Source: Alphaproteobacteria bacterium (GTDB lineage Bacteria > Pseudomonadota > Alphaproteobacteria > Micropepsales > Micropepsaceae). Taken from it: a stretch of DNA of 64,000 nucleotides. Positions within the stretch are counted from its first letter, which is position 1. Each line of letters starts with the position of its first letter. Below, in pieces: positions 45,792 through 47,299 of this stretch. Where the stretch lies: NCBI GenBank assembly GCA_025350465.1, contig JANXXU010000031.1:62001-126000 (forward strand), read 5' to 3'. Under the pieces are notes generated by a model, which saw nothing but the letters and a program-made list of their open reading frames with translations, searched no databases and was not told the DNA's origin. Both the position numbers and the translations under genes were made by a program.

Positions 45792-46055
45792 ATGGGGACG
45801 ATGCAACAAGCAGCAGAAGAATTGGACCTGACCGGCCTTAAATGCCCGTTGCCGGCGCTGATGACGGCAAAGGCCCTTCGAAGGCTTGCACCCGGAACGC
45901 TGCTCGCCGTGACCGTCAGTGATCCCTTGGCACCGCTCGACATCAAGTTCTTGTGCGAGCGCGAGGGACACGACTTTCTGGAGCAGACGAAGATCGAAGC
46001 GGTTACGCGAATTCTGCTGCGATGCCGCCAACCTGAGAATTCTAACCGAGTTTGA
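45792..46055 (+). CDS. tusA: TusA-family sulfur-carrier protein
   Basis: An 87-residue TusA/SirA-like protein. LDLTGLKCPLPALMTAKALR carries the CPxP motif with the sulfur-accepting cysteine (C19), and PLAPLDIKFLCEREGHDFLE is the usual second half. TusA proteins relay persulfide sulfur for tRNA thiolation or molybdenum cofactor synthesis. ATG at 45792 is used; ATG at 45801 is an alternative. It lies 24 bp from the divergent acyl-CoA synthetase and is convergent with the small peptide genes at 46121-46392. Confidence 0.9.
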   Translation: MGTMQQAAEELDLTGLKCPLPALMTAKALRRLAPGTLLAVTVSDPLAPLDIKFLCEREGHDFLEQTKIEAVTRILLRCRQPENSNRV

Positions 46056-46063
46056 AAAGAGGC

Positions 46064-46095
46064 GGGGCCCATTGGACATTCGTCCAACAGACCCC
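46064..46095 (-). terminator. Hairpin between tusA and the small-peptide genes
   Basis: Minus-strand GGGGTCTGTTGGACGAATGT continues CCAATGGGCCCC and can fold with an inner TTGGAC-GAAT-GTCCAA stem and outer GGGG/CCCC pairing, followed by GCCTCTTTTC. It lies 25 bp past the stop of the second small-peptide gene and 8 bp past tusA, so it may end transcription from either side. Confidence 0.55.
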
Positions 46096-46120
46096 GATCG
46101 ATACCGACTTTGCGGGCGGC

Positions 46121-46225
46121 TTAGCCGAAAAGGGCTACTGTCTGTCCGGCCATCAAGAACATCGCGCCGGCATAAAGCGCGACTGCAACGGCTGACCACT
46201 GAAACAACGTCGTAAGCGTATTCAT
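46121..46225 (-). CDS. 34-residue membrane peptide, paralogue 2
   Basis: A 34-codon gene: M N T L T T followed by LFQWSAVAVALYAGAM and FLMAGQTVALFG. It has one hydrophobic helix (about residues 8-33) and no charge after the N-terminus. AAGG lies seven bases before the ATG (46225). It shares the pattern M-x-TLTT-x2-x-WSAVAVA-x-YA with the peptide encoded 62 bp upstream (46288-46392) and both are exactly 34 residues. The paired conservation at protein level, with different codons, supports real translation. The family is not recognised; type I toxins and membrane-protein regulators can look similar. Confidence 0.7.
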   Translation of the reverse strand: MNTLTTLFQWSAVAVALYAGAMFLMAGQTVALFG

Positions 46226-46287
46226 GACCTTGGTCTCTCTTTGCTGCGCCGCAGTTCGCGGCTGATGTCTGTTCGAATTGGGATGGC

Positions 46288-46392
46288 CTAAACGAGGGTC
46301 GCCAGGGCCTGAGCGCTCGTCGCGAAGCTGATCGCGGCATAGACGGCAACCGCCACTGCGCTCCATTCGATCATCGTCGTCAGGGTTCTCAT
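46288..46392 (-). CDS. 34-residue membrane peptide, paralogue 1
   Basis: A 34-codon gene: MRTLTTMIEWSAVAVAVYAA followed by ISFATSAQALATLV. A GGAGAG ribosome-binding site precedes the ATG at 46392 by about four bases of spacer. One hydrophobic segment (about residues 9-33) predicts a single-pass inner-membrane peptide with R2 and E9 near the N-terminal boundary. It resembles the downstream peptide (46121-46225), and the two are probably co-transcribed from a promoter near the palindrome at 46460-46478. Too short for most gene finders. Function unknown. Confidence 0.72.
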   Translation of the reverse strand: MRTLTTMIEWSAVAVAVYAAISFATSAQALATLV

Positions 46393-46459
46393 GGTTCTCT
46401 CCTCTTCAAGGCGCTGTCTTTCGCGGGGGCGACGGGCAGCTCATTTCTTTGTTCGCCAC

Positions 46460-46478
46460 TAGTATGTATCTCATACTA
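46460..46478. promoter_or_regulatory. 19-bp palindrome upstream of the small-peptide genes
   Basis: TAGTATG-TATCT-CATACTA is a perfect inverted repeat with 7-bp arms in an AT-rich stretch, 68 bp upstream of the first 34-codon gene. It may be an operator or overlap a promoter. The regulator is unknown; the sequence differs from the TetR-adjacent palindrome at 46634-46647. Confidence 0.5.
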
Positions 46479-46580
46479 TGAGTAATTCAACTGCATTCTG
46501 TGCATACCACCCCTGCAAAGAATGCACGTCTCGGGTTCTTGAACCTGAAACCACCTGCAATACCAATGTGTTAAGTCGCC

Positions 46581-46601
46581 ATTCAGCATTGCTGAATTTT
46601 T
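46581..46601 (+). terminator. Terminator-like hairpin in the 46393-46660 gap
   Basis: ATTCAGC-ATT-GCTGAAT is a perfect 7-bp stem with a 3-nt loop followed by TTTT on the plus strand. No coding gene on the plus strand ends here (tusA stops at 46055), so it would fit the 3' end of a short untranslated RNA starting in 46480-46560. A second palindrome GGTTC-TT-GAACC lies at 46532-46543. Both are inferred from pattern only. Confidence 0.4.
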
Positions 46602-46633
46602 CCTTGGATCACGAACGCTCGATCTTATATAAC

Positions 46634-46647
46634 TAACTGGTCAGTTA
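46634..46647. promoter_or_regulatory. Likely TetR operator
   Basis: TAACTG-GT-CAGTTA is an inverted repeat with 6-bp arms located 14-27 bp upstream of the TetR start (46661), inside the AT-rich segment TTATATAACTAACTGG that resembles a promoter. Such placement is usual for autoregulated TetR repressors, so binding here should control the whole exporter operon. Confidence 0.65.
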
Positions 46648-46660
46648 TTAAATTAACCAC

Positions 46661-47299
46661 ATGACACAAACCGCAGTCCAACGTTGGCGTCGACGCAAAG
46701 AGGCAAGACCCGCCGAGCTTCTCGACGCGGCCCTCGACGTGTTTTTCGAAAAGGGATTTTCAGCGGCGCGGCTGGAAGACATCGCGGCGCGCGCGGGCGT
46801 CAGCAAAGGTACCGTCTATCTCTACTTCAGCAGCAAGGAAGACGTGTTCGATGCGCTGGTCCGAGCAATACCGCAGGCCAATATCGAGCAGGTGCGCGCG
46901 CTCGCCGGCGACCCGACAATTCCGGCCGACCAACTTCTGGGCCGCGTGCTGCGCTTCATCGGCGGATTGATCCGCGATCCGCGCATGATCAAGTTTCCGC
47001 GGCTCATCGTGGGCGAGGCCGGCAACTTTCCGAAGCTCGCGGAGACCTATAAGCGCGAAGTGATCTCGCGCGGCTCGGCAATCCTGACGCGCATCATCGA
47101 ACGCGGGATCGAAGAGGGCCGACTGCGCCCCGTCGATCCGCAGCATGCCGCCTACGCGGCGATCGCACCCCTGCTCTTCACCGCCATCTGGCGCACGACC
47201 TTCGAACAATTCGACGCGACGCCGCTCGATGCAGACGCCTTCATCGAACAGCACATCGAGACATTCCTGCGTGGTCTCTCGACCGAGGCTCGGCCATGA
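46661..47299 (+). CDS. TetR-family transcriptional regulator
   Basis: A 212-residue TetR repressor. The helix-turn-helix is LLDAALDVFFEKGFSAARLE and DIAARAGVSKGTVYLYFSSK, followed by EDVFDALVRAIPQ. The ligand-binding domain is complete and of usual length, containing FIGGLIRDPRMIKFPRLIVGEA and IIERGIEEGRLRPVDPQHAA. The stop overlaps the HlyD start (ATGA), so it is the first gene of the exporter operon and probably controls it through the palindrome at 46634-46647. The ligand is likely a toxic compound exported by the system, by analogy with CecR/YbhGFSR. Confidence 0.92.
   Translation: MTQTAVQRWRRRKEARPAELLDAALDVFFEKGFSAARLEDIAARAGVSKGTVYLYFSSKEDVFDALVRAIPQANIEQVRALAGDPTIPADQLLGRVLRFIGGLIRDPRMIKFPRLIVGEAGNFPKLAETYKREVISRGSAILTRIIERGIEEGRLRPVDPQHAAYAAIAPLLFTAIWRTTFEQFDATPLDADAFIEQHIETFLRGLSTEARP

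Follow-up and report, generated by a model that had tools for sequence, protein, structure and literature searches.

Short Membrane Peptides in Bacteria and Their Likeness to pepAB

Short helices that modulate a transporter have been described in bacteria, among them AcrZ, which acts on AcrB, and KdpF, which acts on a potassium transporter (PMC7267776). Accessory proteins of the AcrZ, KdpF, CydX, and CcoM type resemble the two peptides reported here, PepA and PepB, in being short, in having a single predicted helix, and in being separately conserved. However, each of those systems has one subunit gene, whereas pepA and pepB are tandem paralogs in what appears to be their own transcription unit, and neither peptide matches the sequence of any solved or curated member of this type. 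A second group comprises the membrane-acting type I toxins, hydrophobic proteins of fewer than 60 amino acids in which a positively charged C terminus is usual but not universal (PMC8309996). TisB, Ibs, Ldr, Hok, Fst, and DinQ have the size range, the hydrophobic helix, and duplication in common with pepAB. Ribo-seq in Sinorhizobium meliloti has identified a third group, membrane proteins encoded by short open reading frames such as SEP6 and SEP16 (PMC10117765). These share with pepAB an unannotated short frame, a predicted transmembrane helix, and confinement to a limited alphaproteobacterial lineage (PMC10117765), but they have translation evidence, whereas pepAB is known here from sequence and is likened to them by description rather than by sequence.

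Neither peptide matched Pfam, PADLOC, or the chains of the PDB, and the best matches in NCBIfam (E = 0.91) and PHROG (E = 0.075) were at noise level. The pepAB family itself looks undescribed, while lineage-restricted single-helix small proteins are already known as a kind.

Two Tandem Genes and Their Peptides

The window, by which we mean the whole 64,000-nucleotide stretch of alphaproteobacterial DNA that was analyzed, contains on its minus strand two short open reading frames that are separated by 62 bp and whose products are identical at 17 of 34 residues (50%). The first, pepA (46288 to 46392), encodes MRTLTTMIEWSAVAVAVYAAISFATSAQALATLV and is of the E9-W10-S11-A12 type; the second, pepB (46121 to 46225), encodes MNTLTTLFQWSAVAVALYAGAMFLMAGQTVALFG and belongs to a type with mostly Q9 and an invariant G27. 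A purine-rich AGGAGAG precedes pepA within a ribosome-binding site on the minus strand at 46397 to 46407 (GAAGAGGAGAG), the GGAGA core of which is seen again in relatives. The corresponding site of pepB, AGAGAG, is weaker in this genome, and several relatives have GGAGA or a similar sequence in its place. The earlier note's description of two minus-strand frames of 34 codons, 62 bp apart and each with a ribosome-binding site, was confirmed in position and spacing; a length of exactly 34 codons applies to both window copies but is not kept in relatives within the genus, where the peptides have 30 to 35 residues. A mechanical open reading frame caller gives pepB as an 81-amino-acid frame starting at an upstream ATG within pepA, but the alignment of pepB orthologs begins at the internal ATG with the ribosome-binding site and not at the start of the longer frame. 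When PepB was used as a tblastn query against its own 4.06-Mb genome, the matches were pepB and pepA only (E = 2e-5 for pepA).

AlphaFold2 predicts one helix spanning residues 2 to 33 in each peptide, with mean pLDDT values of 85.2 and 83.0, although such a prediction says little for a peptide of 34 residues. The peptides are marginally to moderately hydrophobic, with best 19-residue Kyte-Doolittle means of 1.6 to 2.2, and they carry almost no charge. Each is probably a single-pass inner-membrane helix, judging from these predictions, but the values of the window copies, 1.63 and 1.68, are borderline for a membrane helix and would also allow a surface helix. The membrane location suggested in the earlier note is plausible as a prediction; a stress-related role, also raised there, was neither favored nor disfavored by these results. 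Conserved residues lie in the N-terminal half (T3, T5, S11, A12, and A14), and the C-terminal half is variable. Position 9 is glutamate in all nine PepA sequences and glutamine in seven of the eight PepB sequences. A conserved helix face was sought by using the helical periodicity of conservation and of hydropathy, and no significant signal was obtained (permutation p of 0.23 to 0.93).

Distribution and Gene Order

A two-row profile run over 100 relatives matched nine genomes, all of one genus and including the source genome. Profile E values in the congeners were 1e-11 to 1e-16. Both genes are present in 8 of the 11 genomes of the genus (G000, G001, G002, G004, G005, G006, G007, and G010); G009 has pepA alone, on a contig that stops 36 bp past the gene. 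Orthologs outside the source genome therefore number eight for pepA and seven for pepB. The pair was not found in two congeners, G003 (64% complete) and G008 (86% complete, 2.1 Mb), and neither tetR nor the ABC-2 permease gene was found in them. Because these assemblies are incomplete and the neighboring genes searched for were not found either, the absence of the pair there says little.

Beyond the genus, a 17-row profile detected nothing more at E ≤ 0.01 in the family (96 genomes, 7 genera), and a profile search of 385 genomes of the class returned two weak matches only, both at chance level. The weak matches in the class and phylum lay within long open reading frames or were at chance level given how many genomes had been searched. 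When 84,980 species genomes were scanned with a pattern, the contig of G005 was the sole match, and a search of viral contigs and plasmids gave no relative. One of the weak matches, the N-terminal helix of a protein of ~380 amino acids from another lineage of the phylum (L095, around position 1500; NKLFNWSAVVFLVYCML), resembles the peptides, and an open reading frame of similar length in L094 was also matched; the L095 helix is read as convergence. As far as was found, the peptides are restricted to one alphaproteobacterial genus, apart from a diverged candidate, present as a single copy, in a second genus of the family (see below).

Gene order is the same in all carriers whose contigs are long enough: acyl-CoA synthetase, tusA, pepB, pepA, tetR, hlyD, ABC ATPase, and ABC-2 permease. 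In the window the convergent neighbor is a tusA-like gene on the plus strand (45792 to 46055; PF01206), and the divergent neighbor, which adjoins the pair in all carriers, is tetR on the plus strand (46661 to 47299; PF00440 and PF14246), both being placed by synteny. No partner gene was found to be co-inherited exclusively with the peptides.

Selection on Both Genes and History of the Pair

pN fell below pS in every within-group comparison, of which there were 36 for pepA and 28 for pepB. The pooled pN/pS ratios were 0.40 for pepA and 0.56 for pepB; these are not formal dN/dS values, and synonymous sites are near saturation. Identity at codon positions 1, 2, and 3 was 0.68, 0.82, and 0.48 for pepA and 0.59, 0.74, and 0.42 for pepB. 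The two genes formed separate orthologous clades in the tree (support of 97/93), which places the duplication before the radiation of the genus. Mean identity was 0.63 among the A copies, 0.49 among the B copies, and 0.36 when A was compared with B. No homogenization between pepA and pepB was seen. The window copies, at 50% identity, are unusually alike in comparison with the 27 to 39% found in other genomes, and the WSAVAVA motif that they share is therefore partly peculiar to this genome.

GC-rich DNA abounds in short frames, with 100 listed in 8 kb here, and on that ground the two frames might be functionless products of chance. That explanation is refuted by the conservation data: the profile E values in congeners, the tandem pairs free of frameshifts, and the excess of pS over pN in 64 of 64 within-group comparisons leave it next to no probability. 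We conclude that pepA and pepB are a real small-protein family whose pair is kept by selection across one genus. The earlier note had proposed an unannotated small-protein family under selection, to be examined with tblastn and a test for synonymous bias. Both analyses bore it out, with tandem orthologs in at least eight genomes, pN below pS in every within-group pair, purifying selection on both peptides, and no match to a curated family. The proposal also withstood the outcome named against it, a lack of homologs or frequent frameshifts without synonymous bias, as homologs exist, none of the copies seen in the genus was frameshifted, and the bias is present.

The earlier note had listed type I toxins among duplicated short hydrophobic peptides, and pepAB might accordingly be the locus of a membrane-acting toxin of this type that an antisense RNA silences. 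The size of 30 to 35 amino acids, the single predicted helix, and the tandem duplication all fit such a locus. However, unlike those toxins, pepAB is a single locus per genome inherited vertically in conserved synteny, and its paralogs are kept apart, each under its own purifying selection. The C terminus, where most such toxins carry positive charge, has little or none: net charge runs from −1 to +1, and C-terminal lysine or arginine is absent except for one lysine in two PepA orthologs. Nor is there a sign of a leader that sequesters the start. The mean unpaired probability of the Shine-Dalgarno sequence, calculated with an assumed transcription start site, was 0.36 to 0.75 versus 0.39 to 0.50 for the whole mRNA; ribosome-binding sites were about as unpaired as the mRNA average or more so in nearly all genomes, and the leader was not strongly folded. 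There was no Rfam match at the locus, and a consensus scan, which is a weak test, listed no antisense promoter. The toxin explanation is accordingly disfavored, and we regard it as quite improbable.

Conserved, Putatively Regulatory DNA on Either Side of the Pair

Apart from the coding and TetR-palindrome ends, the best-conserved stretch 5′ of pepA is a candidate promoter on the minus strand at 46461 to 46490, in which a −35-like TTGAAT (46485 to 46490) and a −10-like CATACT (46461 to 46466) are separated by an 18-nucleotide spacer. Its mean pairwise identity is 0.78 to 0.81 among nine genomes. It is missing from the output of a strict sigma-70 scan; calling it a promoter therefore relies on its conservation, and its sigma assignment is one that we infer. 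An inverted repeat read from the alignment, TAGTATG-N5-CATACTA (46460 to 46478, minus strand), spans the −10 element, with TAGT-N11-ACTA kept in seven of the nine genomes, and could possibly be an operator. Directly upstream of the −35 element, four TGCA half-sites on the minus strand (46491 to 46527, comprising 46491 to 46505 and 46514 to 46527) are conserved in the nine genomes and may form a regulator-binding region. The TGCA motif has one zero-mismatch place in its own genome, and a search of that genome for further copies of the promoter motif, as would be expected of a regulon, gave no second good match. Control by PhaR was considered in view of the many TGCA sites in the promoter and rejected for now, as the operator differs, in a comparison made by eye, from the boxes upstream of the phasin and phaR genes of this genome; those regions contain TGCTGCGCAGCAT-like and TTGTGC..GCACAA-like boxes, whereas the pep promoter has spaced TGCA.

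On the other side, a rho-independent terminator (46063 to 46096, minus strand) lies between pepB and the convergent tusA and consists of a 15-pair stem followed by the T-rich CCTCTTTT; a comparable GC-rich inverted repeat is found downstream of pepB in nearly all relatives. A short predicted transcript of about 400 nucleotides, bounded by a conserved upstream region and a terminator, might also be expected if the RNA were the main product, as a conserved small RNA or a dual-function mRNA with the peptides secondary. But conservation within the transcript is codon structured, with third positions varying most, while the leader from promoter to start is mostly poorly conserved and no Rfam family matches, and a primary role for the RNA seems to us highly improbable.

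A TetR-type palindrome, TAACTG-N2-CAGTTA (46634 to 46647), is located by the start of tetR; about 140 bp separate it from the pep promoter. The palindrome occurs family-wide with small variations, including in genera without the peptides, a distribution that fits autoregulation by TetR rather than control of pepAB and suggests a conserved autoregulatory TetR operator. Between this palindrome and the pep promoter, in the region of 46597 to 46613 in the window, is a GTGAACAAGATTAA element. Seven of the nine genomes have it almost unchanged, most distinctly L005 and L009, whereas it has decayed in L003 and in the window; possibly it serves as the −35 region of tetR.

A tusA-tetR Slot That Predates the Peptides

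In members of another genus of the family, tusA and tetR flank the corresponding slot, but its occupant is a lipoprotein-like gene of ~179 amino acids with the motif GTGY.D.QLA.NRYRVTF.GNS (plus strand, 2244 to 2783, in L049; minus strand, 822 to 1379, in L053; similar in L059, L060, and L061). The neighborhood therefore predates the peptides, and the site between tusA and tetR is a variable slot inside an otherwise conserved gene block. In G016, a member of another genus, the slot holds a single 27-amino-acid frame, MRTTFYFMEISAIALVTLSLLTLVIAS (plus strand, 2419 to 2502, in L050), which has GGAG ahead of its start and TGCA-rich DNA upstream and is like PepA at M1, T3, E9, S11, A12, and A14. 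It scored 11.2 bits against the family profile, and the best of 3,000 Markov-shuffled versions of the region scored 10.9, corresponding to a p value below about 1/3,000, or below about 0.006 when 17 loci are allowed for. The frame is likely, although not proven, to be a diverged homolog, and it is the sole convincing candidate outside the genus.

The age of the neighborhood matters for the proposal that the peptides regulate the adjoining ABC exporter, encoded by the tetR-hlyD-ABC-ABC2 operon, as AcrZ does for AcrB. The pair directly adjoins this divergent operon in every carrier, and in G003 and G008 the searches found none of the peptides, tetR, and the ABC-2 permease, but both of those assemblies are incomplete. 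The tusA-to-tetR arrangement existed before the peptides, with a lipoprotein gene in the slot elsewhere, so a position next to the exporter is a weak argument for a shared function; moreover, the exporter genes occur across the family without the peptides, and the peptides have a separate candidate promoter about 140 bp from the TetR palindrome. We consider regulation of this exporter unlikely.

A Possible Role in the Inner Membrane

The genes themselves, the selection on them, the constancy of their pairing, and the conservation of the DNA on both sides are established. The explanation that we prefer, at a probability of roughly 0.45, is that pepAB encodes an accessory pair of inner-membrane peptides for a larger membrane protein or complex. 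The two genes would make up a self-contained operon, presumably transcribed as one mRNA, in which a conserved region lies upstream and a terminator precedes the convergent tusA. Each peptide would insert in the inner membrane with its Thr-rich N terminus and E/Q9-W10 near the interface. That two versions of one helix always occur together and in the same order points to a function needing both; PepA and PepB may be synthesized jointly and work in partnership, either as a hetero-oligomer or as two alternative subunits, although the presence of a gene pair does not prove a heterodimer. Short helices of this sort whose role is known often act by binding to a bigger membrane protein and adjusting its activity. 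By analogy with AcrZ or KdpF, the pair might then do so with an inner-membrane protein or complex. A bolder version makes PepA and PepB obligate partners in a minimal heteromeric membrane-peptide device that are paired through E9 and Q9, invented by this lineage in the lipoprotein slot, and placed under a dedicated multi-operator promoter, and we think it decidedly doubtful.

Short membrane peptides escape both gene callers and curated libraries. Comparative genomics here validates a sub-35-residue pair that has a candidate promoter and a terminator of its own, a young gene pair in a position taken in another genus by a different envelope gene. The locus allows one to ask why a lineage should keep two versions of one tiny helix adjacent to each other.
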